From Datnioides undecimradiatus (Eukaryota > Chordata > Actinopteri > Lobotiformes > Datnioididae), in assembly GCA_008933995.1 (NCBI GenBank), contig WARS01002890.1:62001-126000 (forward strand): a stretch of DNA of 64,000 nucleotides, given 5' to 3'. A program made the position numbers and the translations under genes. Of the stretch, positions 4,844 to 58,663 are shown in pieces (position 1 is the stretch's first letter; each line of letters opens with the position of its first letter). The notes under the pieces were generated by a model. It saw only the letters and a list, made by a program, of their open reading frames with translations, was not told where the DNA came from and made no database searches.

Positions 4844-4970
4844 ATGTCTTAAAACATGATCTCAGAGGCTTCCTGAAGTGTTCATTAATTCTCACAGAAG
4901 TTAAAATGAGAAGCCGACGGCGTCATCGCCTCCTCCCTGTGCATGTGTCAGTGTTGTGTTTGTGTGCCAG

Positions 4971-5226
4971 CAGCTTGATAAACTGACTCTGGATCAGCTG
5001 TAAGACACATTTCTGTGTGTCAGCAGCTTGATAAACTGACTCTGATCAGCTAAGACACATTTCTGTGTGTCAGCAGCAGCTTGATAAACTGACTCTGGAT
5101 CAGCTGTAAGACACATTTCTGTGTGTGAGCAGCTTGATAAACTGACTCTGGATCAGCTGTAAGACACATTTCTGTGTGTCAGCACCTTGATAAACTGACT
5201 CTGATCAGCTGTAAGACACATTTCTG
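4971..5226. repeat. 53-bp minisatellite, 5 copies
   Basis: Units start at 4971, 5024, 5077, 5130 and 5183, each exactly 53 nt apart. Each carries CAGCTTGATAAACTGACTCT followed by GATCAGCT and AAGACACATTTCTG. Small internal deletions are balanced by an extra CAG, so the period is kept. The array is just downstream of the Ig receptor gene. Confidence 0.95.
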
Positions 5227-14742: not shown

Positions 14743-16636
14743 TCAATTCAGTTCAATTCAGTTTTATTTATATAGCGCCAATTCACAACCAAAGTCATCT
14801 CAGGGCACTTTACAAACAGAGCAGGTCTAGACCACACTCATTACTGTTAGTTACACCCAACAGTTCCACCATGAGCAAGCACTTGGCAACAGTGGCAAGG
14901 AGTAACTTCCTTTAACAGGAAGAAACCTTGGGCAGATCCTGGATCAGGGTGGACGGACATCTGCCCTGACCGGTTGGGGGAAAGAGAGAGAGAGAGAGAG
15001 AGAAGTACAATATAGAATAATGACAGCAAATGACAGCAAATGGCGGCAGAGGACACGGGGCAGGACGGTGGAGCCACAGGTCAGATGTTCAGCTCTGGAG
15101 CCACAGGTATCTGTAGAGAGGTACAGAGAGAGAGAGACCAGAGAGAAACAAGCACAGCACTAGGGGAGAGAGGACACAGAGTTAATGGTTAATCTGTGAT
15201 GGTTAAAATGAGTTTGAGGAGAGAGAGGGGAGAGGAGGAGTGTGGAGATGATCATGGGATGTCCCCCAGCAGCCTCGGCCTATAGCAGCATAACTAGGGG
15301 ATGGCATGGATGGTGTAGTTCACATGGTAACTAGAACTAGCTGTAAGCTTTGTCGAACAAGAAGGTTTTAAGTTTTACTTTAAAAGTAGAGAGGGTGTCT
15401 GCCTCTCGGACCCAGACTGGCAGCTGGTTCCACAGGAGAGGAGCCTGAGAGCTAAAGGCTCGGCCTCCCATTCTACTTTTGGAGATTCTGGGAACCACAA
15501 GCAAACCTGCACTCTGGGAGCGAACTGATCTGTTGGGTTGATAGGGACTTAGCATCTCATTGAGGTACAATGGAGCTTGGCCATTAAGGGCCTTGTAGGT
15601 AAGAAGAAGGACTTTAAAATCTATTCTGGACTTTACAGGGAGCCAATGAAGAGAGGCTAAGACCGGAGAAATATGATCTCTCTTGCTAATTCCCACCAGA
15701 ACCCTCGCAGCAGCGTTTTGGATGAGCTGGAGGCCTCGCAGTGAGCTAGTCGGACAACCTGACAACAAGGAATTACAATAGTCCAGCCTTGAGGTAACAA
15801 ATGCGTGGACTAGCTTTTCGGCATCATTTTTGGACAGGATACTCCTAATCTTAGCTATGTTGCACAGGTGAAAGAAGGCAGTCCTAGTGACCTGCCTAAT
15901 ATGGGGCTGATAGGACATATCCTGGTCAAATATGACTCCCAGGTTCCTCACGGTAGAACTGGAGGCCAGGGTAACACCATCCAAAGCGACTGCGAGGTCA
16001 GATAACCTGTCTCTGAGGTGTTTAGGCCCAAACAAAATCACCTCAGTTTTGTCTGTATTTAGAAGCAGAAAATTATAAGTCATCCAGGCCTTAATGTCTG
16101 TCAGACATGTCTGCAGTCTGACTAATTGATCTGTTTCTTCTGGTTTCATAGATAAATATAGCTGTGTATCGTCCGCGTAGCAGTGGAAATTTATGTTGTG
16201 CTTCCTAATAATATTGCCTAGGGGGAGCATGTAAAGGGAGAACAACAGTGGTCCAAGCACAGAACCCTGTGGAACTCCATGATTAACCATTGTGTGCACG
16301 GACGAGTCATTATTAACATGGACAAACTGGAATCTGTCGGATAGATAAGATTTAAACCAGCTTAGTGCTGTTCCTTTAATGCCAATGACATGTTCTAGTC
16401 TCTGTAGTAGGATATTGTGATCGATGGTGTCAAATGCAGCACTGAGGTCTAGCAGGACAAGTAAAGAGACGAGGCCATTGTCAGAAGCTATTAGGAGGTC
16501 GTTGCTAACCTTAACCAATGCTGTTTCTGTGCTGTGATTTATTCTAAATTCTGACTGAAATGCTTCAAATAAACTGCTCCTCTGCAGGTGATCACAGAAC
16601 TGATCAGCCACTGCCTTTTCAAGGATTTTAGAAACA
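14743..16636 (-). mobile_element. 5'-truncated L2-clade LINE with intact RT open reading frame
   Basis: A non-LTR retrotransposon copy lies on the minus strand. The frame 15337-16611 encodes 424 residues of reverse transcriptase without a stop. It shows motif A in [17 protein letters not shown], motif B in [17 protein letters not shown] and motif C as YADDTQLY. The reading continues upstream of the first Met as [12 protein letters not shown] and then loses similarity near 16636, so the endonuclease and 5' end are missing. The 3' untranslated part runs to about 14743, where short direct repeats of the TTCAATTCAG type form the tail; such tails are usual in the L2/CR1 group. The long unbroken frame suggests a fairly recent insertion. 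It lies against il11 in the opposite orientation. Confidence 0.92.
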
Positions 16637-16683
16637 GTAACGCAGAAACACTCAGGTTCATGTTTCCTGTCTTGTCTTTTCAG

Positions 16684-18641
16684 TAATTCACGACGCCACC
16701 TCTCGTCTTCTGCACCTGCTGCTATTGGCCGAGCTGTTCGTCCACTCGTCGTCTCAACCCACCAGGAGCTCGTCCCTCTGTGACGCGTTCAGGTCAATGA
16801 TCCATCAGGTGGAGAGGCTGATGACCCTGTGTGAAGAACTGCATGGCTTGGTGAGATTGGTCTCCTGTACGGACAGATTAGATTAGTTAAGGCAGAGTAG
16901 AGTAAAAAGGCACTTTGACACTGAAATAAACTAAGTAACAGATCAATGAAGTAGGACGTTGATACAAATAAGCAGGAAATTAATCAAATGAATGCTGAAT
17001 ATTTACATACGGGTTTATGAAAACATGGTCTGTCCTCCATATAACCCATATATTAGATCTTTTAGTCTGATTATTTAATCTGGATTACAGATTTAAAGTG
17101 TTTTCAAGTCTCAGAAATGTGTCTGTCCCCAACAGTCGGATAAGGAGCTCCAAAACTTTGACAACGTGGGACAGAGACTGGACCATCTTCCTCACATTCA
17201 GCACAGCGCTGCCTATTTCCACTCACTGAAGGTAAAGCTCTGTGGGAGCAGTTTGTGGTGAGTGTCTGTCACAGTTCAGACTGTAGCTTAACTCCGCCCG
17301 TCTCTTTGTCTTTGTGACGTCTCTGCAGGTGAATGAGTCGCTCTCCCATCTTTACGTGTACACCCAGTCCTTCAGGCTGCACGTCGACTGGTTGAAAACA
17401 GCCAAGGAGAACGTCAGTTTGTCCCACGAGTCTGCGGAGAGAGCCGGCGCCCACCTCCTGACGCTGTCTGACCTCTTTAATGTGACTCTTCACATGGTGA
17501 GAAGATGAGCGTGGACTTACTCAGATGGTTTCACCCAAAACTAAAAGTTTAAATAGTAAAATAAACAGTTTTTACCAGCTGATCAGTGAAAAGGGAATAG
17601 TTAGGGGCATAAAAATGAACCAACATGAATCAGAAATTGGCTTTAAAGTTAAAGTTACGACAGATCGATGCGCCGACCTCTGGATCGATCGATGTGCTGC
17701 AAACCGCTCGATGGCCCGATCTTAAAGCGATGAATCGGTTGAGTGAAGCAGCAACGCTGCTGCTTCTGCAAAGCAGCTTCAAGCTCTCCTGAGAGGTCGA
17801 AGGTCAGTGAGAGACTCTGGTGCAACTCGTGACAGTGACGTTGGCGTAGCGTTGCCAAACACCAAAGCAACATGTCCGACAGCAGCGCAGCAGATCAAAC
17901 GTCTGGAAGGTTTGGATTCTACAGGAAGGACGGAGAGTTGGAGGGAAGTCTGTCCTGACTGTGACTGACTGAGCCTGTCTGATTCATAAACACAGTGACA
18001 TGCAGCTCTGACATTATACACTTCATCTGTCAAACAGCACCAACCAACACAAACACTGAGGACTCCCTGGTCTGAGTCGTATCGTAGCCCGTGTGTCTAG
18101 GGTCTCTATTAAAACATTAAATTAGCTTGAACAGCTCATAGGAAAAGCTGAACAAACACTCAAATAAGGTTAAGAACCTTTAAATTCATTACGCATCAGT
18201 GTTTTCATCCAAACTGTCTCATGCTCTCACTCCCAACCCGTCAAATACCTCAAACTCGGACTCTGCAGGAACCTGTAACAGACGCGTGTAGCGTCATTTC
18301 TGTAAGTGCCGGTTTAGCGTGACGTTTTGATGCGTCGTTGAAACCAGGTGACGTTGCATAAAGAGCGAGAACTTTAAACCCAGACTATGATCTTTCCCCA
18401 AACTCTAAACTCTTTAAACAGCTTCCTGGCTGCTGTCTAAACCTCTCAACTTCAACCTCTCTGTCCTCAGATCAGCGAAGAGGTTCCTCAGACGCCGTCT
18501 CCCTCCCTCCCTGCCGTCACCACCGCCTTTGACGCGCTCCGGTCCTCTGTTGAGATCTCTCAGCGGCTACAAGTCTTCTGTAACTGGTCGAAAAGAGTCT
18601 TGCGGTACCTCCAGAGACTCTCCCGCTGCCCCAGACGTTAA
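16684..18641 (+). CDS. il11: interleukin-11-like cytokine (first exon not found)
   Basis: This is a secreted four-helix cytokine of the IL-6 family, which signals through IL-11 receptor and gp130. Visible exons are 16684-16850, 17136-17231, 17329-17496 and 18471-18641, with clean AG/GT junctions and consistent phase; they encode about 199 residues. The first visible exon starts with a hydrophobic run ([16 protein letters not shown]) that fits the end of a signal peptide, so exon 1 must supply the start. [17 protein letters not shown] followed by HVDWLKTA matches the region of mammalian IL-11 reading LDSLPTLAMSAGALGAL and HVQWLRRA. The last exon reads like the mammalian helix D. N-glycosylation sequons occur at NES, NVS, NVT and NWS. 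A LINE sits about 47 nt before exon 16684. Teleosts have two il11 paralogues; I cannot say which this is. Confidence 0.83.
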
Positions 18642-25200: not shown

Positions 25201-27694
25201 CACCAAAAACTGCCCTAACTAGCAGTGTCAAGTAGCAAGACTGGTTTTAATTGCCACAATGCACCTTTAATCATGTTATTAAACCATAACTTTCACCAAA
25301 TAAGTGTCAGTAACTGGCTCAGTAACATGCCGAAGACTGAAAAACTCAGACCTTCCAAAGTGTTTTTGATGCCTAAACATAACCACAGATGGGAGTCTAT
25401 GTGCAAACCTCTGAAGGCAAAGTCCTACCATTTACTTACCTGCCACCCACCCTGACCGCTCCGCCATGAGTCCAGTGCTGTAGATAAATGATGCACTTTG
25501 TTCACAGGCAATGTTTCATGAGTATATTCAGCCCAGAACATGACAGCTTGGAGATACATCTGTGACAGAAGATCAGTTTTGTAGTTTGAGCGCCCCCATG
25601 TCGAAATTGAGTCTAAGACATAAAAACAGTGTCTTGTGGTGTGAGGCCTCCTCATGTTTCAGATTCATGAGTAAAACAAAAACACTGATTATCACTGATT
25701 TGTTGGATATGTGTTTCCAGGCTGCCACGAAGCTTCTGGATGAGATGTGCCACCTGACGGCTCAGTCTCTGATACCAATGGACACGTCGGCGCACTTCCA
25801 GGTCCTGAAGCTCCTGGGTGAAGGCTCGTATGGCAAAGTCATGCTGGCTGTGCACAGGAAGAGAGGTGAGGGGTGGGCAAACTATCACTTGTTCATTGAA
25901 GCCACCAAAGAACAAACACCTAGATCAATAGGAATTCATGAACCAAACAAATGCAGAAGATCCTGGAGAACAATATTCATTCAAGGGATTTCTCTGTTTG
26001 CATTTGAGCCACCAATAGGAACGCTAACGTGGCATAAGGTGGCAAGCAGGGGGTACAGCAACAAGAACCACAATTGTTCCCTGTTCCCTGTTCAGTGCAA
26101 ACCTATGAACTATGAAAAAGGTCCTTCTTCTGGAAAACGTCTGACATCTTTCCCTTGTACCCACCAGGAACTCCTATGGCTCTGAAGTTCTTCCCTCGTG
26201 AGTCCACCTCTCTTTTCTCTTTCCTGAGGGAGTATAACCTCTCCCTGTCGTTCTGCACCCACCCGTCCCTGACCAGAGCCCTGGGGATCGCCTACTCGAC
26301 ACCGTCACACTACGTCTTCGCTCAGCAAGCCGGCCTGTTTGGCGACCTCTACGATGTCATCTTGCCTGAGGTGCGCATTGATGAAAAGGCTGATGTGTAA
26401 CAGAAACCGGGTTTCTGCTGCTGTTAAAGCATCCTTCTCCTTCCATAATCCCACAGGTCGGGATGGAGGAGGACTGCTGTCAGCGGGTGGTGTCCCAGCT
26501 GTGTGGAGCCCTGTCCCACCTGCACTCTCTTGGTTTTGTCCACAGAGACTTAAAACCAGAGAACGTCTTCCTGTGCGACTCTGCCTGCCGTTGGGTCAAA
26601 CTAGGAGACTTTGGCATGGTCAGTATAAACCATGTTGGGTGCTGGATTGTTTGTCTATTAAAGGATGGTGTTTCTGAGAAAGCATGAGTCGTTTCCTGTT
26701 TATGTCAAAATGATGCTAGTTGCTGTGACAGAAGTTAGACATTGATCTGAGTAGGTATGACCAACTTCCACTCTAAATGCATTATAAGTCTATGAACTTC
26801 ACAATCATCTACTCAGGATCTCAGTGGCTAATTTAACAGATTAGCATGTGTAAAAGGAGACAGAGGAGTAAGCTAGTGCTGCAACACCTGTATGAGTTCA
26901 GAGTACAATGTATTGTAATCAGGTGATGTTACAGAGCACATAGAGTCCACAGAGTGAGGAGGTTTGGGTGAACTGGTGAATATATTTGATATATTTACAG
27001 TCATTTTACGTGTTTCTTTGTTGCACACATGACAGATTAATTAATGTTCCTACACCAGGTGAAGGCCAGGGGCACCAGGGTCCCGGAGGTCTGGTACAGC
27101 TCCCCTTACTGCACACCTGAGGCCGAGGTCGCCCGCGGAAACCAGGACAGCTGGAGCAGCATGAATGACAAGAATGATGGCGTTACAGAGGATGAAGAGA
27201 AGAGAAAGAAGTCGAGAGTCTGGGTGTCTGTGGAGCCCAGCACGGACAGCTGGGCGCTGGGGATCCTGACCTACGCCATGCTCACCGGCAGTCATCCATG
27301 GGCTGAAACAGCCAGCGACTGCAACTCATACCTGAAATATCAGGAGTGGTTTGACATGGCGAAAGGTCCCGATGACGAGCTGGACGTGTGGGCAGAGCCG
27401 CAGGGTGAGAGCGCGCAGGACGTCGACCTAATGGGGACAACACTTGGAAAGAAAGACCACCCGCCCACAGCGCCACAGTTTGCATGTTTCACCCCGTTAG
27501 CTTGCTCCTTCTTCCTGTCGCTGCTCAACCCGAGGCCACGGCTTCGCGGGCGACCTGAGGACGGGCTGAGCTACCTCGGAGGGGACTGGGTGATGGAGAA
27601 GGAGAGGGTGCGGCTGGAGGAGCAGAGGAAGAAGAGCAGAGGGAAAGGAGCCATCAAAAACATGAAGGAGATGGAGGGGAGAGGGGAGCGATGA
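22296..27694 (+). CDS. sbk: SBK-family serine/threonine kinase (SBK2/SBK3-like)
   Basis: This encodes a predicted 383-residue protein kinase of the SH3-binding-domain kinase family. Exons are 22296-22301 (Met-Thr only), 25721-25865, 26168-26370, 26457-26618 and 27059-27694; phases agree at every junction. The glycine loop is GEGSYGKV (residues 35-42). The ATP lysine is in MALKFF (K57), the helix-C glutamate in FLREYN (E72), the catalytic loop is HRDLKPEN (D149) and the metal site is DFG (169-171). All key residues are present, so it should be active. Between TPE and DSWALG lies a charged, Lys/Glu-rich insert. The N-terminal segment [14 protein letters not shown] resembles human SBK2, and the tail is Arg/Lys-rich. 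In mammals SBK2 and SBK3 are expressed mainly in heart. The tiny first exon rests only on phase, a GTAAGT donor and family expectation. Confidence 0.88.
24467..24519. repeat. (TG)n/(CG) microsatellite
   Basis: An alternating pyrimidine-purine tract with CGTG interruptions lies in sbk intron 1. Confidence 0.95.
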
Positions 27695-36042: not shown

Positions 36043-39000
36043 TCAGAACTGGATCCAGTTTCCGGTGTCCTGCGGTCGTGACGGTGGTGCAACGGAGCTG
36101 AAGACACATCAGTTCAACACATACAGAACATATCAGTCATTAAAGGGCAGTTTCACTGTTTTGATTATTATAAGCATTGTTTCAACAGATCTTTAAAGCC
36201 TGCATTAAAAATCTTTTTGTTGTTGTTTGTTGCATTGAATATTGTATTGAATAACGCTTATTAAGACTACTCAGCTGTCATCACCCACACGAGCTGCGTC
36301 TCCCTCTAACTCCAACTTCTACCTGTTCTCAGCTCAGTTTCAGTTCCCTCTCATCTTCTCATTAAAGCGTTTTCCTTCCCTCTGTTCACAGAGTCGCCAC
36401 ACCACGTGTCATTTAAACACTCGTTTTGTTTTGTTTCAGGGTTTTCCTGACACAGCTTCCTGTGATCGGTCTGCAAGCCTGAACATCCAAAAAAGAACAA
36501 TTCACACGACTAAACTGGATCTGGACTGAGCGGGTGGATGACGGTTCAGCTGGACACAGAATTCACATTAGACTAAACCAGGCTGATGTGAAAGTGGAGT
36601 TCAACTCAAACTCCGTCCCGAGATGAATATCGGTGCTGCATATTGCACTGGCATTATATGGCCAAAAGTATATGGACACTGATTTCCTGTTACATCGCCG
36701 ACACAGACACACTGTTGTGCAGTGTGAATGTGTGTGTCCCATGCTGCCACCTCAGCCTTTCCCCTGTATGGAGACTCAGCATTGTTACTGCCTCTGCTGA
36801 GAGCTGCCTTTCAGACAGAACAGAGAGATTAAACAGGAAGTGCAGACGGGGGGATGTGGAACCTTTTACCAGAGTCAGAACATTCAGGTGTCCACATACT
36901 TTCGGCCACATGGTGTCTGTTAGAGTAAACGAGTTATCTACCTCGCAGGAGCAGAGAAGTCTCCCCAGAGATCCGAACTGGGGTTCGACTGCACCACCGT
37001 GTTGGAGTTACTACTGTCCAGCTCCAGCAGGCAGCCTGATGGAGGGACGGGAGGGAAAGACGGAGCTCGTTAGAAGAAGCTGACACACATTTCACTTCAT
37101 CTGCTGCAGCCTGAAGCCCCAGTAACTCATTTAACAGCAGCTAATTAAACAGGGATTCATGAAACTGGGTCATTCCTGGAGGTTAGGAGAGTTTTTTTAA
37201 GTGCACTTCTGCACAATCAGTGTAATAATGCACGCACAGGAAGTAGGCTACATGCTACATGTAGCATGTAGCATGCAGCGGCCCGCTAAGCTTTAAAGCT
37301 CAGCTTCAGTGGCGCTTACCTGTCGGTGTGCCGCCTGTCTGCGGGATTATGTTGTGATTGGATGAGCCCGACGAAGGAGGAGGGGCTATCTTGCCTCCAG
37401 GTGGTGGTGGGAGGAGCCCGAACCCACCTGAGCCTTGTGGGCGGGGTTTATCCCTCTTTTTACCTTGCTGGAGACAAACACAAACATGTGTACACAGATT
37501 GTTTATTTCAGTGTGTCATTTTGTTTTAAAATGTGACCAAAAGCCATTTTGTTGTTTGACAAACTGGTTCTTACCCCAATGTTGAGTGTGATGGTCTGTC
37601 CCTCTTTAAAGCCCAAGTCCAGTTTGGGCTCTGAAACCCCGAGCTGGGCGCTTTTACTGATTTCATTCTCCTGTTTCACCCACCTGTGCAGCCACATCAT
37701 CAGCACAGACACAGAAATAAACAGCTCAGCGCTTTCAGAGACACCACAGCGTGCAGTTTCCCACAGCTCTGCACATCCAGTCACAGCTTACTTGAAATGG
37801 TCCTGCAAAGCCACGTTGAAATCAAAAGCATCCCCCCGGTCCCCGAAGCCGACCCCGATGAAAGCGCTGCGACCTGCGGACAAAACGGTGAGGTTTCAGT
37901 TTCTGACGTGAACGACGAGCAATAAATAGTCCTTCAAACATCGATAAACAACCAAAGAAACAACAAGTCATCACCGTTGTCGTCCTGGATCCTCAGAACA
38001 AAGTAGCGGCTGGAGTCGCTGACAGTTTCCACGGCGATGCCAGGATACTCCTTAACAGGTGCCTGGGCGAACAGCTCCCCTGCAGGACAGGAGAGGAAAT
38101 GCAAACTAGTGAACCATCCATCCACGAGTGATGTGTTTACTAAACTAGGTACCATGGTTAGAGGTTGAGCTGATGTTTAATTGTCGTATAAACAACGTGG
38201 TTTCTTCTATGAGCCCCATGCACCTGTCGCTGGAACCATGCTCTCAGGTAAAAAGGCTGATTTATGCACATTTGCATCAGCTGGTTGTCACACGTGTCAG
38301 GCTTTCATCCACACGCAGCTCAGATTTTAAGCAAATTTAGCAAAAAATGTCAAAATCAAATGCATAGTAATGTCTTAGTCCATCTGCTTGTCCACGTCAT
38401 GCAGATATTAGATGCTAAACACCTCCAGATGAACAGTTGGTGGTGCATTATCATCAGTGCAGACGTCTCTGAAAGAGCACCAGTTAGAGTCTGTGGGGGC
38501 TTCATCTTGTTTGTCATTGGGCGATTGAGTTTTAAAGTTGAATCCATGACACAGTTGTACCTGAGACCTTGTCCTCCAGTTTGATGTAGGCCACCTGGCC
38601 CTTGGCTGTGATCCTCATCCGACCAGACCAGTCTGGAGCATCCAGCTTCCAGTCGGCTGCCCTGTGGACACACGAGATATCAGACTAAAACTGCTACAAT
38701 ACAGCTTTAACTGTGTGATTCGCAAAGAATACGGTGGAGACTTTAAAACAACTCAATCCAATAAACTCTAGATTTCATTAACCAACATATTCTACTCTGA
38801 CGATTCGACAAATGAGACAAAACGGGTTATAGATCCAACTTTAACCAAAAAACCATGTGCAATCCCTCAACAACAAAGAAAAAAGCTCACAATTACGTGC
38901 AAATTTAACTTTTTTTTTGCAACGGAGAGTCAGGCGAAAGTCTAAAAATCTGGACACGCAAAGGTAAAGTGCAAATGCAAATGGAGTTCTGCAGGGTGTG

Positions 39001-39548
39001 CAGCGTTATGCAGGTGGAGTGCTGAGTTGTAGTCTTAAAAATTAGCTTTATATCGTTCTTCACACTTCAAAAGCCTGCAGTTTCATATGCGTGTGTAGAC
39101 TACTGTATCTCAAATGGGACAATATTCCATCATATGAGGATGCTGGTCTCATGGACCTGTTTTAGAGTGTTTAGTGGCTGTTTTAGTCTTCTTAATGACT
39201 GCCCTGCATAGTAATCCAGGCTGTGTTTGCAGATAATGCACCTGCGCGTCTGCCCTCGGGTAAACACAAAGTTTTAATGTGCGGAAAAACCTGAAAACTG
39301 TATTTTTCATTTTAACTGACGGGCTGTGTGACGAGGCCACATCCGAGCTGTCACACGGGCGAGTGGGACAGTCCTGGCAAACCGCCCGCATCGACCCCGG
39401 CACGATGACAAACACCCCCGCCACGGCTCCGACAGCAGCGCGACACAGCGGATTAACAGCTGGGAACGTGTTTTCATTTCAGGTCTCACGATAACACACT
39501 ATATCATAACATAACGCAACGTAACGTAAAGCTCGCTCTGTGTGTGTG

Positions 39549-39580
<32 letters not shown>

Positions 39581-39788
39581 AGCGCACGTTAACCGGCAGC
39601 GAGCGGCGAAAGTGAAGAGCCGACACACCGGGAGACGACACAAACACCGTTAAACCACGCTAACGCCAGCCGCCGCCGGCTGGTTGTTTTTACCTGTACG
39701 AGCGGTTTGAAGCTCGCGGCGGGATGCGATAAACGTTGACATCGGGCTTCACGCACAGGATCGACTCGTACTCGCCCTCGGCCGCCAT
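36043..39788 (-). CDS. necap1: NECAP1-like adaptin-ear-binding endocytic protein
   Basis: NECAP proteins bind the AP-2 adaptor and help control clathrin-coated vesicle formation. Eight exons join in phase into 262 residues: 39694-39788, 38561-38661, 37975-38079, 37792-37873, 37575-37683, 37320-37467, 36942-37035 and 36043-36097. The PHear domain spans exons 1-5, with [64 protein letters not shown] and [15 protein letters not shown]. The tail is proline-rich and has two WxxF adaptin-ear motifs, WGDF and the terminal WIQF (mammals have WVQF). The start at 39788 has a strong context and matches the family; an in-frame ATG at 39833 would add 15 residues but has a weak context. Human NECAP1 and NECAP2 are 275 and 263 residues; the sequence looks closer to NECAP1. 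It is head-to-head with the epsin gene. Confidence 0.95.
36656..36912. mobile_element. MITE-like DNA transposon with inverted termini
   Basis: The left end reads ATATGGCCAAAAGTATATGG and the right end, reversed, reads CATGTGGCCGAAAGTATGTG; both continue into GGACAC with only a few mismatches. The element is about 257 bp, has no transposase and lies in the last necap1 intron. This terminal sequence is common in fish Tc1/mariner-type non-autonomous elements as I remember them. Confidence 0.8.
37247..37272. repeat. perfect 26-nt palindrome
   Basis: The sequence is its own reverse complement, with centre between 37259 and 37260 and each half built from GCTACAT. It lies in the necap1 intron, 48 nt from the donor of exon 37320-37467. 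Confidence 0.95.
39540..39580. repeat. (TG)n microsatellite
   Basis: About twenty TG units with one CG interruption lie in necap1 intron 1, about 110 nt from exon 1. Confidence 0.95.
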
Positions 39789-40246
39789 CTTGATTCGGTT
39801 GTTATTGATGTGGGAGTTGTGGTTGTGACTCATTTATTCGGCTCTTTTCTGAGGCGCGCGCGCGTGTGTGCGTGTGTGTGTGTGTGTGTGTGGTTTGCGT
39901 CGTCCTAACGCCACAGCACGTCGAGCTCAAGCTCACTCTCCATCAAAACTGTTATAAACGGTACTTTGAAGTCATAAAACTGTTATATTTGTGGTTTATG
40001 ATAAAAATATTTTTTACGGGTTTTATTTATTTGATCATTTTATTATTTGATTTTGACATAAAATACGCCTAACTGCTTAACATAAAGGTGTATTAACTAA
40101 AAAAATAATAATAATAATTAATAAATTATCATAAGGGGGCGGGGAACCGGAAGCGGAAGCTGTCGCGTCGTGTCGTCTCCTCGAAGATTCCTGAAGACCT
40201 ACTCGGGGTTAGTGCTGTATTATTGCTGAAAATACGCACATTTAAG
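39779..40246. promoter_or_regulatory. putative bidirectional necap1/epsin promoter
   Basis: The necap1 start codon (minus) and the presumed noncoding first exon of epsin (plus; donor TTTAAG/GTACG at 40246/40247) face each other within about 0.45 kb. The segment holds a YY1-type word AAGATGGCGGC over the necap1 start (minus strand, 39782-39792). It also has tandem ETS words in CCGGAAGCGGAAG (about 40147-40159) and an alternating CG/TG tract at 39854-39892. No TATA box was seen at a fitting place. Such features are typical of housekeeping bidirectional promoters. Confidence 0.65.
39854..39892. repeat. (CG)n(TG)n alternating tract, Z-DNA-prone
   Basis: Thirty-nine nt of strictly alternating purine and pyrimidine, starting with several CG steps and continuing as TG. 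It lies between the two divergent genes. Confidence 0.9.
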
Positions 40247-41093
40247 GTACGAATTAACGCCTGACCAGCGGGTGTTATGCTGAACTACCAGCAGCGACTG
40301 TATGTCGGAACATAACCCTTCATTTAATCGCTAAAGTCTGATATTTAAGCTGGTCTTGCGGGCTTAACAACACCGCTCCCGACCGTTAGCCATATTGACG
40401 GCTGCTGGTCGTCTTCAGGCGCTCTCCGAGGTCCTGAAAACACGATGCAAGACTCTTGACAGAGACGCTTACTTGCAAGCACGTCGACTAACAGTTAACG
40501 TGGCTCAGACTAATCATCCATTTGCGCTATAAATGAGGTTTTAGCTCATATTTTTCTTAAATACAGCAGCCTTAAGAAGCTAGCAGCTGCCTAGCTTATA
40601 GCTTAGCCAGGTAGCTAACCCAGACCAGGATCTGTTTGTCGCAGTGATTATGACAAAATGACACGAGCTGTCACGCACAGCTACACGCATATTGTCAAGC
40701 CTTGCAGTCACGCATCCGTAACTGTCTGCTCTCCCTTGTCACGCAGTGCCAGTCTGTGCATCAGCTTTTTTTTTTTTTATATGTTCACCGGTTCTTGTCT
40801 GCAGCAGTACGATCTGGTTTCTGGCATCCTGAGACGAGCCAATGCAGCCAGGGAGTGGAGAGACCAGCAGGATGTACGCTCACTGAACCAGCAGCTGCAC
40901 TCAAACAACATAATACAAAGAGTACATAAGACAACACAGCCAGATTTTACAAAAGGTATGTGAGTTTGCATGAGTTTGCAATATTTAATTGTACATCATT
41001 CGTTCTGCAGGTCAGTGTAAGTTTTCTTCAATGTTAACAAGTTTTCTCTGAATCAGATCGCAGAGGTTTGTTTTCCCGCCTCCCCCAGACACC

Positions 41094-44000
41094 ATGACGT
41101 CCTCTATGCTCCGCCGCCAGCTGAAGAACCTGGTCCAGAACTACTCTGAGGCTGAGGTCAAGGTAGGAGAAACTGAAATCAAGTGATAAAGAACTTTGTG
41201 AATCTAAGATGGTTTCAAGATTTGTTTAAAGATATGCAAACCAGATTTGCTTTTATTTAGAACAACCTAAGATGCAATTTTTAAAACTACATTTTTAAAT
41301 ACGCCTATTCAGAGCCATTGATTAGCCTCCAGTATTTCCCAATATCATTGACCTACAGGGCACAGTTTTAGTTGTACACGTGCATCATCAACAACACAGC
41401 AATATTACAGCAATATCAATTCATTCAGGTGTTTCCAGTACAGATGAAAGGAATAACTACTGTTAATTTGTATGTGAAATGACACTTAGTTGACTGATTA
41501 CACACACTGCAAACATGAATAGCAAGATGTACAATCATTTAATGTGTTAAAATGGCAAAACATGCAATTAAATAATGTGTTAATGGACTTATGTTATCAG
41601 CATTTGTGGATAATGCTAAAACAAAAGCACAGTGATTGAGAGTTTTTCATCCAGACAGTCAGGTGTGACCATCGCTGCTGAGGGAGAGGAAGGGTTAACT
41701 CTCTAAATCCTAACCTTCAGGTTTGCGGAGTCATGGAAATTTGGGGATATGTTTTATGCTAAAATGCTGACCTGATGAAACATGATCAGTAAAAACTTGG
41801 CAGAACAGATTATTGGCAAGGAGGACTCACTACACTGGAGCAGGCGCGACAGAGTCTTGTTGTCACCAGCTGGCATCTCTGACCTCTGAACCACTGCCAC
41901 CCTATACCCCTGACACACTCACATTCCTTGCGTCACTTGTTTTTCAGGTGAGAGAGGCGACATCCAATGACCCATGGGGCCCGTCCAGCTCTCAGATGGC
42001 GGACATCTCCGATCTAACCTACAACGTGGTGGCCTGCAACGAGATCATGACGATGCTCTGGAAACGCCTGAAAGATGACAAGAACTGGAGACACATCCAC
42101 AAGGTAAGTGTTCACATTGTGGTTAAACAGCTATTTCCATGTATTTACTGTGAACATTTATCAAATTAACCAGTTAAATTAGTATTTCTATTACTGATTG
42201 CTATGGATTAAATATTAGAAGCTATTGAAAGACAACCTGGATACTTCTGTGCTTACGTATAATTTCTAAACTATCCAGTTTCTACTATCCTGTTTCCTGT
42301 ACAAACATCACTGGACACAAAAACTCGTGATGGTTAAATCAGACAAATAAATTGGGCTTTGTATGAGAATAGAAGAAAAACAGTAACATGAGAACAAACA
42401 GCAGAGGAAATAAAAATTAATCGCAGTGTTGCTTCAGCTGTGGTCAGGCAGGGTCATATCATAAGATGTTGAACACACAATGTCCAGTAAGTAATAAGAG
42501 CCCTGTACCAGTCTGCTGTATCCCTGTAAGTCTGTAATAACCGCAATATGTTATTTCTTTATTTAGAAGTCAGTGTTACAATATTTAGTAAACAATAAAC
42601 ATTTTGTGGTTGTGACTCATTCACTATAATCACTATAATCATTATAAGAGCCAGTGAGTTCCTAGCGCTGGTATGCTAAGCTAACATCCAGCTACTGGCA
42701 TACCACTGCTGCAAGTTGTCACTATTTCATGATGCAGAGGTAAATGTAAGCAGGTCTTTAGGAAACGTGTAAACTGCACCACGTGGCACCACAGGCCTTT
42801 GTGACTTTGTATTGGTTGGTGTCCACTACAAGCACAGCGTCTTTTGAGGCAATTGCATTGTTTGTCTCTTTCTACCTGAGCTTTGACTTTACAGATTTTG
42901 TTTTGTTCCTTTCATTGTTTCGAAACGGGAGAACTGTTGGACTTCATGGGTTGTCAGTGTGTTTTTGTTCCAGCCACACACGTTTTGATTTGTTGTCATA
43001 CTTTTTCCTCGCCAGTCGCTGACACTGCTGGAGTACCTTTTAAAGACGGGCGACGATCGCGTGCTTCTGAAAATGAAGGACAACATCTACATCGTCAAAG
43101 CTCTCACAGAGTATCGCTTTGTAGAAAAGGATGGCAAAGATCAGGTGATACACATTTTCTGCTAACGTCCAGAGCATGCAACCCTTTAGTTTATCCATTA
43201 AGAGGGTGCATGCTCTGTATTAAGATGATCCTTTATTGCCACTATGACGTCCATATCATTATATTCATATGAACCTTTAGACCAGTTTCACAATGAAGAA
43301 TAAATATAAACTTCAGTTTTAAGTTTGCTGCCTCAAAATTAAGCAAAAATGAATTAATAAGACTAAGTTTAGATCTTAGTTCAGTTTCAGTTATCCAGGT
43401 TTAGATGAAAACATCAAAGTCTAATGTAAGCATATCTGTCCCAGGGTGCAAATGTGAGAGAGAAGGCCAAAGTTGTCCTTGTTCTTATGGAGGACGATGA
43501 CAAACTGAAGGAAGAGAGAGACTTTGCCGTCAAAACCAGAGAGAAGACGTCAAAAAGTTCTGCCGGTGAGCCTTTCTGTCGTAAAGTATCACTGCTGAGA
43601 TACCAAGTTCAACAGTTTTACTATAGTTTTCTTCATTCGTCTGCATCTGTCACACACAGCCTCGTCCGTGGACACCATCAAGGATCCTAACTACAAGCCA
43701 TGCTATGTTGCCGGGGCCACGGGGCTACCATCCTTAGACAACATACCCTCAGTGGCTGACTTAACGGCTTCCTTCGCCGCTCGCAAAGAGGAGCGTCTCA
43801 GACAGGAAGCTGAGAAGAAAGAGGCAGAGAGGAGGGTAAGTGTGTAACAAGTTGATATAATTGAATTATATTGGTGTTAATGTTTATATGTGGGGCCTTT
43901 ATATATTAATTTAAACATTTGTAGTTTGTTTGTCAAATAAGGCGCCCTAATTGGATGTAATCTTCCAGGCCAAGATGAGCGAAGATGAGCTGAAGTGGGA

Positions 44001-47000
44001 GGATGCAGGCAAGGGCGGTAATGTTAAACAAGGTGCTTGGGGAGAAGAGAAACCAGAGGAGGAGGTGAAAACAGACGCATGGGGAGCCCCCACAGAACCT
44101 AAAGAAGCCACAGATCCATGGGGCACACCAGCAAAACCTGACACAACCGACACAGCAGCCAGCAGTGATCCGTGGGGGGCTCCAGCTAAATCTGATGAAG
44201 ATTCTTTCACAGCACCGAAAACCGATGAAGATCCGTTTGCTGCGCCAAAGAACGGAGAAGATCCTTTTGCAGCACCAAAAGATGAACCTGATCCATTTAG
44301 TGCATCAAAAGATGACCCTTTCAATGCACCAAAAGATAGTTCAGACCCCTTCAGTGCACCCAAAGACAAGGAGGATCCATTTGCTGCCCCGAAAGATAAA
44401 CCAGATCCCTTCAGTTCGTCCAACGATGATCCGTTTAATGCACCCAAAGACGATCCGTTTACTGCTCCAAAGGACGATCCCTTTACTGCTTCAAAGGACG
44501 ATCCGTTTAACACCCCGAAGGATGACCCCTTCAATTCTCCAAAAGATGATCCTTTTAACACCCCAAAGGATGACCCGTTTAATGCCCCAAAAGATGATCC
44601 TTTTAACACCCCAGAGGATGACCCGTTTAATTCCCCAAAGGATGACCCATTTAACACCCCGAAGGATGACCCGTTTAATACCCCAAAAGATGATCCTTTC
44701 TCTGCCGCAAAAGATGATCCTTTTAATGCCCCAAAAGATGATCCCTTCACAGCACCAGTATCCCCACCCTCTAAAGAAGACCCATTTGCAGCACCAGCAT
44801 TATCTAAAGACGACCCTTTTGCTGCACCAACAACACCACCTAAAGAGGATCCTTTCTCGGCATCATCCAAACCTCCCAAGGACGACCCTTTTGCTGCACC
44901 AACAACACCACCTAAAGAAGATCCTTTCTCTGCACCATCCAAACCTGCAAAAGATGACCCCTTCACTGCACCAACAACACCACCTAAAGAGGACCCATTT
45001 GCAGAGCCAACGAGCCCACCAAAGGATGATGCCTCAGATCCCTTCAATGCAGCTCTAGTGAGCACACCACCAGGCAGTGCAGATGCATGGGGAGCCCCTG
45101 CTAGCTCTCCTCCCGCAACTGGGTCAGATCCCTGGGGGGATGGAACAAGTGCCACCTCACCAGTTGATGCTTCTGATGCTTTTGGAGACGCATCAAACAA
45201 TGACCCATGGGGAGCCCCAGGTAAGAAACAAATAAACTTGGGAGTTGGGAGATGAAGTTTAATTCTGGGACCTTGTGTTAACCGTTTTTCCCGACCGTGG
45301 TCAGGTAGCAGAGGGGGGCTTTCTTCCAGGGCTGAAGTTGCTGCTCAATTCGGGGTTAACCGCCTCCACTTACTGAGCAGTCGTGGAGCAAGAACACACC
45401 GTATCATTGTATCATGTGTGGTGAACTCTTTGTTGGTGAAATGTGATGGTGAAAAGAAAAAGATTGAAAGAGCACTGATCTCAGCTATCTGTGAACATCA
45501 AAACCAGCTTTAGCATCAACTGCAAAGGGCTCAAAGTCAGTGACCAGGAGGCAGTGGACAGAGGTCATTTCTAGCGAAGTTGAATGAACCTCCCACCACC
45601 CAAAATCATGTATGACAGGTGGATTGGGAACTCTAAATTGACAATAGAAGTGAATGTGAGTGACGCCGAAATGGATAAAGCAGTTACAGGAAATGGATGG
45701 ATGGATAAAGAATAGATGAGAGATTGGTTGTTTACATATGGGTCAACTAAAACTACAGGTTTGTGAACAAGGTAACTTAACTTTATAACTGGTTATAGAC
45801 CTGCTGAGACTGCTTGCTCTCCACAGCATTAATGTGTTAACTAAACAGATCACATTAATAGAAAGATGATAAAGGAAACTTAACATAACAGGTTGCACTG
45901 GACCGGTAAGACGGCTGCCATGTAGTTTAATCCTGGAATGAAGAGTCACGGTGACACATCACATCTGTGTGTATCTGTTGTGTCCTGATTGAGCTCGCCT
46001 GCTCTACTTCCCTGTTTAGCTGCAGCTCCGGTCAGCACGGATGATGCATGGGGCTCACCTGCTCCGCCCTCAGACTCCTCCCCATCTAGTGACCCCTTCG
46101 GAGACGGAGCATCTAAAAAAGGAGATCCCTGGGGTGCACCGAGCAACGCACCTAGCAATGGGACAGGTAAGTAGCAGTTTACGCTCACATCTGCAATCCA
46201 CCCGTTTCTCATAAGGGTGTTTATTGACTGCTTCAATAAAACCTGATTAACTCAACTAAATCTTATGTAATGATATGTAATTAATCGATAGCTGGTTGTC
46301 CGTGTGCCTGCGTCTGTACTCGTGCGTTTATAAACACTTAGCTTTGCCATGAATACGCTTTTCTTGCCCACAGTTAACGGTGCATTTGCATGCGTGACAG
46401 TTTTCTTCCATTCTCTCCATTTCACCTCCACCTCCATGCCTCAGTCAGCTGCTGGCTAACACTCCTAATCAATTAAACTTCTCTTCCACTTTGCTCTCTC
46501 TTCCTCCCTGACCTGTCCCCAAAAGAAAACACCTTTTAGAGTAGATCTGGACCTTTATTTTATTGCAGGAATGCAAACAGTGCAGGAAAAGGAGACGTAT
46601 AGAAAGACTGCATCGTTTCTGGGCTCTGCCGGGGCGTCGCTTGTTGACTTGGACGATCTCTTCTCATCTAACCCCAGACCCAAACAGCACCCCCTCGTCA
46701 ACACACTTGCCGCCCAGACACAAGCCATTGGTAAGGACCGACTAAACGCTTCACTCTGGGTGAAAAACACCATTTTCAACAAAGGCTTCATGTGGAACTT
46801 ATCTGTGGTGCGTTTGATTCAAATGATCAACCCCAGAGACTGGAAATGCATTCCTCTGCCGCGCAGCTTGAGTCTTCAGTCCAGAGAGACACAGAGAGAG
46901 GGGTGGAGACCAGCCAATGAGTATTTATCAATAGGTCTGAATGGAAAAAGCTTATTGTGATAATGTGTTTTACTGCCCCTCCCCTGTGCTGTCGCTGTAG

Positions 47001-47661
47001 TGTGTAGATGTTGTTGCAGTGTGTGTGTGTGTGTGTGTGTGTGTATAGAGACTAGTGTATATTACCCAGCAGGTATTTAACTCGTGTAACTCCTCTCTCT
47101 GCTCTGGTGCAATTTTCTCTTTGCTGTAACACTTCAAACTGTACCCCCCCCTCCCTCCACCCTCCTCCTACTCCTGCTAATTTCCCAGGCGCTCTCAAAG
47201 CCATGGCGTCTGGCCCCGTGGTCAGATCAGGGGCTCTTTCTGACCCATCAGCCACCCTTGCTCCTACGCTCGGTGCACCTACTCCTGCTAACCTTCCCAG
47301 TGATACTCCTCATATTCAGCCGGCGTCCCGCACCATTGGACCATCTCATTCTGGTTCGTATATGCTTCAGGCTGCTCATGTGGCGCCGCCGTGTTCAGGA
47401 ACCGGATTGGTACATCTTGTTCCTCTGGGAGAGAGTCCAGGGTTTAACACGAACCCCCTCTGTGGGGGAGTGGTGCAGTCCGGATTGCTGCTGGGGAATC
47501 CTTTGGCAGACCCCCTCTTTTTGGGAATGGGAATGGTTGAGTCCAGTTTGTTTGGAGGGAACCTCCAAGCAGGAGGATCCACTCCGCAGGGCGGGGGTGT
47601 CACTGCTCAGCCACAATCCAGCGAGACGTTGAACAAGAACAACAATCCTTTCCTGCTCTGA
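41094..47661 (+). CDS. epn1: epsin with expanded DPF array and no recognisable UIM
   Basis: Epsins bend membrane and link PI(4,5)P2, AP-2, clathrin and EH-domain proteins at coated pits. Nine coding exons (41094-41162, 41948-42103, 43016-43144, 43445-43565, 43660-43835, 43969-45220, 46020-46166, 46569-46730, 47189-47661) join in phase into 894 residues. The ENTH domain starts MTSSMLRRQLKNLVQNYSEA and keeps the basic lipid-binding residues (R7, R8, K11, R25); the KRLKDDKNWRH segment is one residue shorter than in human epsins. Exon 43969-45220 encodes 29 DPF motifs (residues 305-574) and four DPW; the next exon adds one of each. A clathrin box LVDLD is at 708-712 and the protein ends NPFLL, as human EPN1 does. 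No ubiquitin-interacting motif is visible between the ENTH domain and the first DPW. I call it EPN1-like from the tail and the neighbours; EPN2 or EPN3 cannot be excluded. Confidence 0.93.
44425..44760 (+). repeat. in-frame 24-bp tandem array, 14 units (DDPFxxxx)
   Basis: Exactly fourteen 24-nt units encode DDPFNTPK-type octapeptides, epsin residues 370-481. Third-base choices vary between units (GAT/GAC, CCG/CCT/CCC, TTT/TTC), while DDPF is unchanged in every unit. On both sides DPF units continue with looser spacing. The periodicity also opens long meaningless frames on the minus strand and in another plus frame. Confidence 0.97.
45560..45712 (+). repeat. SINE/LINE-tail-like dispersed repeat with GGAT tail
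   Basis: The stretch GGATTGGGAACTCTAAATTG, then GTGAATGTGAGTG, then AGGAAATGGATGGATGGATA resembles the 3' end of a dispersed repeat I know from many fish sequences. It is shortened in the middle. It lies in the epsin intron 45221-46019; the left part of that intron (about 45290-45420) may belong to another repeat. Confidence 0.5.
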
Positions 47662-47993
47662 CAGCCTGGCGTGTAATCTGTCCCGTCAGACACACGTTTA
47701 AATTCAATGAGCACAGTCTGAGTTTTACATGTTTTAGTCAGTTTCATGACATCATTATGACTTTTATCGCTCTGGAAACTGAAGAAACACCATAAACTTA
47801 ACATAACACACGGATATGGCTAATACATGCAGAACCACCTGTGTGGTCCATTAATTCCATTATCCTTTAATTAGCTCATGCATGCAGTTAATGCAACAGC
47901 CATGAAATACAGAAATACACACAGATACGCGCAAAACTGTATTTATGGAAAATCTGGGGATCGGTTCTTCTTCATGCACAAGCCTAAGAAACA

Positions 47994-48026
<33 letters not shown>

Positions 48027-51600: not shown

Positions 51601-53745
51601 ATGGACCAAATTAAACCCCGATGCGCCGCCTGACCATGACATAATCATTCACGATTAGAATGATTTGATCAAAGTGACGGCTTACATCGGCGCCACGTTG
51701 ACGAACATCGTTCAAACCGCCCGTAGATATTTGTTTTCCAAAGACGTGTCGGGCGAGATACGTATGAAACCGTGATGAACAAGACATTCATGGACTGATA
51801 CCAACATTATTTTAACTGAACTTGACTGAAATGAAGAATTAAGTGTCTGAGATCTTTTCAGAGTGTGAAATTAGATTTTTTTTAATAGTTTTAAGAGTTT
51901 GAACAGAAAACTGTGTTTATGGGCTTAAATTGTGTTTTTAGTGCATCTAGAACTGCGATGAATGAAACTGTGATGAATTTTCCATCAAAATGCCAGAGCA
52001 GAAGGACACATTTTAACTTTTCAACCTTTGTGTGTCGACATCGTGGCCTTTATGTCACTGACGTCTGTTGTTTACAGTTTGCCATGTTGTTATGAGCAAG
52101 ATCAGCTGATACTGAGTTTGAATAACAGATAAAACAGATGCTGCTGGTTCTATCGCATCATAAAATATAAATAAACACTAAATTATTCAAACTTAACATC
52201 AGATGTCACTTTTTTTTTTGCTTTTCATTGTAAACCATCAGTTGAAGAGGAAAGAGTGGACTTGAAATGTGAGCCAGACAGCTGGACTGAGTACACTCAT
52301 TCATTCAGGTCACTTCCAATACAACAGCTCTGCCATGGATCTGCCTTCAAGCTTGATCGACACTATTTTAACTCATTTATTATCATTTATTACAGATGCT
52401 GTTGTTTGCAGCAGTGTTAAACTGGACCGCATCATAATATATCACACATAGAAGCTCATTGATGAAGGTAAAGCAGAACCTTTCTGGCAGCGGCAACACT
52501 TTATTGAAAAGCAGAGCTGTTGTGTGGGTTCACATTAGACTGGACCTACTTGATGACGTGTTTTAGAGTTTGCATGCAGGTTCTCCCCCATGATCAAGAA
52601 CTTGGACTAGGTGACCAGGAGCTGGGCAATGGCTGCCCACCAACTGTAGGACTGGTTGAATATTGCGTTGCTCTACTTTGTTTTTAGGTTTTTCTTGTGT
52701 TTTTTAGACAGAGATAAGAATTAAACACAACAATGAGACATAAACGATTGAACAAAGACTAAACTGTTCCCATCACATCTTAATCAAGATGCTTGACTCT
52801 GTTTCCCGTCTTTACTTTTAGGTGGTCGTCCAAACAAAGACAGCATGAGAGTCAGTGGGCATTAATCTCATCCACCTACTGCTGCAAGATTAACACAGAT
52901 TACCAGGCCCCCTGAGAGGTGGGCCTGAGATCCAGGACTAATCGCTCCTTTGTGAGCTCAATCCCTCCCGGAGAGGTGGAGGAGCAGGTTGAGGAACGGG
53001 ATGTGCCCTAATAGCGGGGCTGATTAGTTTCAAAATCCGCAGAGTAAGATTTAGACGTTTATCTTCATCCGAGAGGGAAGCAGCGACTGAGAAGGACACG
53101 AGACGTGATGGCCGTGGGAACATGGGGTAGAGCGGCAGCTCGGTGAGAAGAAATGTGGGGGGTCAAACGCTTCGCCTGGCTCGTGCCGTAGCATCAAGAA
53201 GAAAGGAAGCGCTCTGATGAACTACGTTGACTTTCTGTGTTGGATTCTGGAGCAGAGCTGGAGTCCCTCCTGCAACCTCTGGCCTGCACATCTGTCTCCT
53301 CTCTTACTCGCTGGAAGTGATTAAATCTCAGCACTTGATCTTTCTCTATCGTCCTCTGACCTCGGCTCATCGACTGTTCTCCTTCCTCGAACCCTGCCCT
53401 CCCTCCATCTTTTCAACCGACCTCTATTCTGATTCACTTCTGATCTTTGTTCCACTTCTCAAACGTCCTTAATCCCTTTTCCACGCTTTCTCTCTCTTTT
53501 TCTCCTTTCCACCATCCTCCATGCATCAATCTCAACCGCAACAACCTGCCACACCCAACTCGCTGGACTTCATCTCGACTTGTCACTGATGTGTCCCCCG
53601 CGATCCTCTGATCTTCATCCTCATTGGTCAACGGATTGTGTCAGGCTCTTGGAGCCATTTTTGAACTGACCTCAAAATCCGGCCGAAGCACACTCTTTAG
53701 TCAGAACTTGTTTCTCGTTGGGTTTGCTCGAGTCGAGAAGCAACC
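48531..53745. other. epsin-gsg1l2 intergenic region
   Basis: No protein family was recognised. The left end holds a TG tract (48575-48616). The rest is AT-rich unique sequence with short shadow frames, plus a purine-rich stretch at about 50930-51180. The right end, about 53.1-53.74 kb, is pyrimidine-rich and probably includes the gsg1l2 leader. Confidence 0.55.
48575..48616. repeat. (GT)n microsatellite
   Basis: About twenty-one GT units lie just downstream of the epsin poly(A) signal. Confidence 0.95.

Positions 53746-58663
<4,918 letters not shown>

Follow-up and report, generated by a model that had tools for sequence, protein, structure and literature searches.

A probable EPN1 duplicate with a string of thirty DPF motifs and no detectable UIM in Datnioides undecimradiatus

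How does an epsin gene come to encode thirty DPF motifs, and what may such a string do in the cell? The window analysed here, a stretch of 64,000 nucleotides from Datnioides undecimradiatus, raises this question with a gene on its + strand (41094-47661), for which our gene model gives nine coding exons, GT-AG borders at all 8 introns and an intact frame of 894 aa. A first-pass annotation of the letters alone had named the gene an epsin and had counted 30 DPF motifs, 29 in one exon and one in the next. The gene model confirms this count, with 29 motifs at residues 305-574 (exon 43969-45220) and one at residue 659 (exon 46020-46166), and the epsin identity is borne out by the ENTH domain (Pfam PF01417, E 1.1e-47) and the similarity to rat epsin 1 (1h0a, E 2e-65). 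The full inventory comprises 30 DPF, 18 DDPF, 6 DPW (five outside and one inside the ENTH domain), 3 DAW, 1 DAF and 1 NPF. No Rfam family and no tRNA were found within the window; a 483-aa open frame with a reverse transcriptase domain, LINE-like (15340-16788, - strand), and a 53-bp tandem repeat (4961-5226, 5 copies, 92% matches) lie farther upstream.

The first exon (41094..41162, +) carries the ATG and ENTH helix 0, as judged from the gene model and the alignment to 1h0a. Exons 2 (41948..42103, +) and 3 (43016..43144, +) encode ENTH according to gene model, ENTH profile, 1h0a alignment and genome matches, and exon 4 (43445..43565, +) contains the end of the domain by the first three of these. 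Helix 0 is hydrophobic at 4 of 4 positions, and all nine positions checked as PtdIns(4,5)P2 contacts are identical. Exon 5 (43660..43835, +; gene model) encodes a linker at the place of the UIM exons of canonical epsins. It is followed by the large array exon (43969..45220, +) with 29 DPF and four DPW motifs (gene model, motif counts) and by an exon that adds the 30th DPF and one DPW (46020..46166, +; gene model). The next exon (46569..46730, +; gene model and alignment) reads SFLG...LVDLDDL and can be aligned to RKTPESFLG...ALVDLDSL of an EPN1-like gene on contig C307 of the same genome, its LVDLD at residue 708 being collinear with the LVDLD there. This motif is probably a clathrin box. The last coding exon (47189..47661, +; gene model, comparison with contig C197) ends in a C-terminal NPFLL. 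A Pfam scan of the protein returned ENTH, a sub-threshold ANTH and one chance match, and no EH domain.

The string consists of three zones on the + strand. Unit alignment places seven DPF units, each 30 or 24 bp long, at 44227..44424, TRF and unit alignment define a core of fourteen in-phase 24-bp units at 44425..44760, and by the same two approaches eight units, mostly of 36 bp and with a 72-bp double period, follow at 44776..45069. All 14 core units start with DDPF. The core had been described as a perfect 24-bp array, which is true of its period, with fourteen units in phase, but not of its sequence, as no two of the 14 24-mers are alike and their mean pairwise identity is 75.5%. TRF reports 13.3 copies with 78% matches, and a 48-bp double unit scores higher (82%). 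Linkers within the string measure 5, 7, 8, 9, 10 or 12 residues, mostly 5, 7 and 9, corresponding to a DPF spacing of mostly 8, 10 and 12 residues. Proline occurs in 24 of 29 linkers of 12 residues or less between DPF or DPW motifs. The region is presumably disordered; a PDB search with the array peptide gave chance matches only. SP or TP directly after DDPFN is found in 7 of the 14 core units (44497-44688, residues 399-455), forming candidate proline-directed phosphosites, and it is our guess that proline-directed kinases might tune binding there.

Searching the genome with the array exon gave ten matches: the window, contig C197 and eight others, two of which (the third match on C160 and the one on C495) were left out. 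The remaining six, located on C75, C160, C65 and C19, contained no DPF in any of the six frames and were rejected as further DPF arrays, being compositional repeats. As expected there, prokaryote contigs held no relative of the DPF exon, and viral contigs none of exon 2.

Chance does not explain the 29 motifs of this exon, since 2000 rounds of codon shuffling yielded 1.06 DPF per round on average and never more than 5. Read from the protein, the string opens with a degenerate unit, DEDSF, and DPF is kept in 29 of 30 units. Among the 29 units, the DPF codons show a pN of 0 over 2977 site comparisons at a saturated pS of about 1.04. For the codon before DPF, pN is 0.34 and pS 0.77, and for the two codons after it 0.40 and 0.67. 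These units were chosen by the presence of DPF, which biases the test. The 14-unit core was chosen by its period and is free of this selection bias (DPF in 14 of 14); here the DDPF codons show a pN of 0 and a pS of 0.98, the other four codons 0.22 and 0.67. All these unit values are descriptive, because the pairwise comparisons are not independent. The first-pass annotation had seen a hint of selection in the constancy of DPF amid varying synonymous bases and had suggested computing substitution rates inside the array. These rates agree with it, pN being 0 against a pS of about 1 in the DPF codons of the string as well as in the DDPF codons of the core, and purifying selection on the DPF motif in the array is thus supported by the sequence.

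A second version of the array is found on contig C197, which is collinear with the window and differs from it at 172 of 63,270 aligned bases (0.27% divergence). C197 and C198, the contig of the window, are probably two haplotypes of one individual. A segmental duplication is unlikely in view of the collinearity, the low divergence, the near-equal contig sizes (938,124 and 939,658) and the presence of a further near-identical contig pair in the genome, C215/C218. Relative to the window, C197 carries a 314-bp insertion at 30711. The C197 array has 14 units as well, of different content: unit DDPFNSPK (44617..44640, +) is missing from C197, and unit DDPFNAPK (44713..44736, +), single in the window, forms an exact tandem pair there, both by unit alignment. 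Compared without gaps, the cores differ by 20 mismatches against 0.9 expected in 336 bp; with the two indels placed, at most one mismatch is left. The suggestion that the array may vary in copy number is thus supported as to its instability, one unit being lost and another doubled, but the number itself is constant at 14 and 14. A further 24-bp in-frame difference lies in the last exon at about 47251, where C197 reads SAPYYSPFGSTLAP and the window SATLAP; by eye it is no tandem copy. Since the other seven exons are of equal length in window and C197, all three coding indels measure 24 bp. Both copies have an unbroken reading frame and 30 DPF motifs, in proteins of 894 aa (window) and 902 aa (C197). 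Outside the shifted units, the coding sequences differ by 5 synonymous and 2 nonsynonymous SNPs (P 0.013 against a 3:1 expectation).

It might be argued that the string is a minisatellite that grew neutrally in a disordered exon under relaxed constraint, the duplicate itself being in decay, so that the number of DPF motifs would have no function. The unit turnover between the two contigs, the fast evolution of the ENTH domain and the failure to find a UIM (both described below) and the pN/pS of 0.32-0.60 at the codons flanking DPF would fit such a history. It is countered by DPF codons without a single amino acid difference at saturated synonymous sites, by the maintenance of DPF across three unit-length classes in 29 of 30 units, by a frame that is intact in both copies with 3 of 3 coding indels in multiples of 3, and by the excess of synonymous SNPs just given. 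We therefore regard neutral growth as unlikely, though it deserves serious consideration.

Four canonical epsin loci were detected in the genome, on C307, C14, C481 and C24. The EPN1-like gene at C307:23,285,763-23,293,472 encodes no DPF, 8 DPW, 3 NPF and three UIM-like motifs, and its ENTH domain is 92% identical to that of rat epsin 1. Identity between the window ENTH and those of the four canonical epsins is 58-61% (61% for C307), compared to 80-83% among these four. Three DPF motifs were noticed in ORFs of the C24 epsin, which we take to be EPN3-like (L031:3957-4097 and L031:3130-3513, - strand); DPF is thus not exclusive to the window gene among the epsins of this genome. It had been proposed that the whole lineage exchanged DPW valency for DPF valency. 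The window protein, with 30 DPF against 5 DPW outside ENTH, would agree with this, but the proposal is contradicted within the genome by the C307 gene with its 8 DPW and 0 DPF and by the other epsin loci, which keep UIM and DPW, and we give it practically no credence. As epsins with UIM and DPW persist in the same genome, the shift is confined to a single gene copy. This copy resembles EPN1 of C307 in its ENTH domain, its DPW motifs, the LVDLD-type motif, the C-terminal NPF and three neighbouring genes, and differs from it in having no UIM that we could find, 30 DPF instead of 0 and 1 NPF instead of 3.

For the UIM, three approaches were used. Pfam found no match at E<=10 in the whole window protein or its linker, while 6 of 7 paralogue ORFs used as controls, covering four loci, gave matches, all six below the Pfam cut-off. 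By tblastn, six UIM peptides reached at best an E of 0.41 against window positions 41001-48000, whereas on C307 their E values ranged from 1.2e-16 for the self match up to 0.002. A UIM-core pattern fitting all six control peptides is absent from the window protein. Furthermore, a search of the rest of the genome at E<=1 turned up nothing related to exon 5 (43660..43835). The window epsin is thus without detectable UIM, a point on which the first-pass annotation is silent, and, to judge by its sequence, would have lost ubiquitin binding.

Where this copy comes from is indicated mainly by its neighbours. A NECAP-like gene (37309..39788, -; far end approximate; Pfam DUF1681, which we take to denote NECAP, and genome match), a kinase-like gene (25544..27691, +; ends approximate; one Pfam Pkinase match below cut-off in 27041-27691), presumably SBK-like, and a GSG1-like gene (53746..58660, +; ends approximate; Pfam GSG-1 at 53701-53976 and 56262-56570), to which we assign also the last part of this interval, belong to a duplicated block. 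Each has its best non-allelic match on C307, although over short stretches only, with 97% identity over 36 aa for the NECAP-like exon, 86% over 58 aa for the GSG1-like and 56% over 46 aa for the kinase-like gene. All three tested neighbours match within one 48-kb block (C307:23,260,160-23,308,523), the EPN1-like gene lying between them, and one inversion of the NECAP-kinase pair explains the difference in gene order. No match on C14 was listed for any of the three. The next match of the NECAP-like gene, on C315, is 75% identical; set against the 97% on C307, this suggests that the NECAP paralogues had split before the block was duplicated. The block duplication is not recent, given that 18 of 36 codons of the NECAP exon differ synonymously between window and C307. 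Its timing would fit a teleost genome duplication. In the window, the NECAP-like gene and the epsin stand head to head, their start codons lying about 1.3 kb apart (39788-41094); owing to the inversion this is not so in the C307 block. NECAP and epsin are both linked to AP-2, and a common promoter is possible.

Because the best matches of the three neighbours fall into the C307 block that holds the EPN1-like gene, we consider a duplicated, fast-evolving copy of EPN1 that gained a DPF string the most likely identity of the window gene. This descent rests on the neighbours, since exons of the epsin itself score slightly higher against C14 than against C307 (exon 2: 82.6 and 82.2 bits; exon 3: 45.6 and 43.5 bits). 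The C-terminal exon is collinear with EPN1, at an E of 0.71 only. With rat EPN1 as outgroup, the ratio of unique ENTH changes in window and C307 is 50:3 (p 5.5e-12), and with C14, C481 and C24 as outgroups it is 42:8, 38:5 and 43:6; a CLINT1-like outgroup gave a weak contrast (16:8, p 0.15). One ENTH tree, which has no starred branch, puts the window gene beside C307 and rat EPN1 with a support of 35/0, and the grouping of window and C307 was not rejected (p-AU 0.43). A plain IQ-TREE tree puts it outside the other epsins with a support of 54. The ENTH sequence thus does not point to a single descent.

Alternatively, the gene could descend from an older epsin subfamily, such as ENTHC with human ENTHD1, or be a duplicate of e.g. 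C14 instead of EPN1. The available part of PMC3473312 describes ENTHC as a subfamily that is specific to vertebrates and whose function is unknown. Like ENTHC/ENTHD1, the window protein is a vertebrate protein with an ENTH domain that falls outside the set of classical epsins. The low ENTH identity to the canonical epsins, the slight lead of C14 in exons 2 and 3 and the lack of another clear ENTHC candidate among the matches of these exons (a weak match on C467 was left out) would suit this descent. Its synteny, however, points to EPN1, and the collinear C-terminal exon, for what its E value is worth, leans the same way. The ENTH of human ENTHD1 is 53% identical, in a provisional sequence that offers a lead and no test, and in the tree this sequence did not group with the window gene, supports being low. 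A descent of this kind thus appears improbable to us, if less so than some of the alternatives discussed here.

On balance we favour an EPN1-block duplicate without UIM whose rebuilt DPF string would make it a multivalent, ubiquitin-blind AP-2 concentrator. A block duplication in a teleost, probably of the whole genome, would have doubled the EPN1 locus, the C307 copy staying canonical. The window copy would have retained ENTH, the clathrin-box-like LVDLD, some DPW and the C-terminal NPF, with no UIM detectable today, while tandem duplication rebuilt the presumably disordered region into a string of 29-30 DPF. ENTH may anchor the protein to PtdIns(4,5)P2, weak contacts of its many DPF motifs with the appendages of AP-2 may sum to high avidity, and AP-2 might in this way be gathered at nascent coats without a choice of ubiquitinated cargo. 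Unequal exchange or slippage would add and remove whole 24-bp units, and purifying selection would hold the DPF of each. The binding and gathering of AP-2, like the date of the duplication, are predicted from sequence features. The drop from 3 NPF to 1 would weaken links to EH-domain partners.

Published systems provide a frame for this proposal. According to the available text of PMC7787433, the 8 DPW of human epsin 1 are separated by linkers of 7-17 residues and the 15 DPF of Eps15 by linkers of 2-58; the figure of 8 agrees with the about eight DPW assumed beforehand for human EPN1. The modelling in that paper allows Eps15 to engage more AP-2 alpha simultaneously than epsin does, with a maximum of 10. 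The accessible part of PMC5694535 reports that many weak appendage motifs produce high avidity and that motif context shifts the preference between alpha and beta2 appendages. EPS15/EPS15R likewise possess a DPF string (EPS15: 15 in human, 13 in mouse, in the portion of PMC2238750 at hand), which binds AP-2 appendages (PMC6524969, as far as available). The window epsin has twice as many DPF, no EH or UIM match, and regular linkers, mostly of 5, 7 and 9 residues, in contrast to the 2 to 58 given by the same part of PMC7787433. The view that it stands closer to EPS15-like adaptors is thus sound for the identity and number of the motifs, but EH domain and DPFX2-3DPF are both absent. In the stretches examined at 14 EH-domain and 4 NECAP loci of the genome, no frame contained 2 or more DPF.

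The likeness to Eps15 raises the idea that the string replaces Eps15 and serves chiefly the mu-homology domain of FCHO or a DPF-reading EH domain, and not AP-2. Both FCHO1/2 and AP-2 are binding partners of the DPF region of EPS15/R (available section of PMC6524969), and the EH domain of POB1 binds DPF (likewise PMC2238750). Optimal FCHO binding, though, requires a tandem DPFX2-3DPFX2-3DPF by the same section of PMC6524969, and the window epsin has no occurrence even of DPFX2-3DPF, its shortest linker being 5. For this reason we prefer the AP-2 concentrator to a hub of the Eps15/FCHO type. The linker argument bears on FCHO and not on an EH-domain reader, but as a whole we hold the replacement of Eps15 to be very improbable.

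A lack of UIM is shared with the epsin of Dictyostelium (PMC6912373, available part). By description, the window epsin differs in that its UIM were probably lost within a single vertebrate copy, alongside the amplification of DPF. As the UIM and the multiple NPF, two features of vertebrate epsins, are missing from what we detected, we regard the window gene as an epsin-derived variant and no canonical epsin. Among the papers listed by literature searches, none was seen to deal with a UIM-less or DPF-rich teleost epsin.

AP-2 accessory proteins act via many weak motifs. To our knowledge, there are few natural cases in which the number of AP-2 motifs is separated from ubiquitin recognition. Here, one genome holds a related gene pair, one member with 8 DPW, 0 DPF and UIMs, the other with 30 DPF and no UIM found. 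Together with the probable alleles of differing unit content, this pair would separate AP-2 valency from ubiquitin recognition, and both can be tested. We put forward, tentatively, that a duplicated epsin, once an adaptor for ubiquitin cargo, has become an AP-2 polymer hub blind to cargo, its valency selected through DPF and its units turning over fast. If this is true, two alleles of one individual already differ by two unit events, and motif valency in endocytosis would be a heritable and selectable trait.
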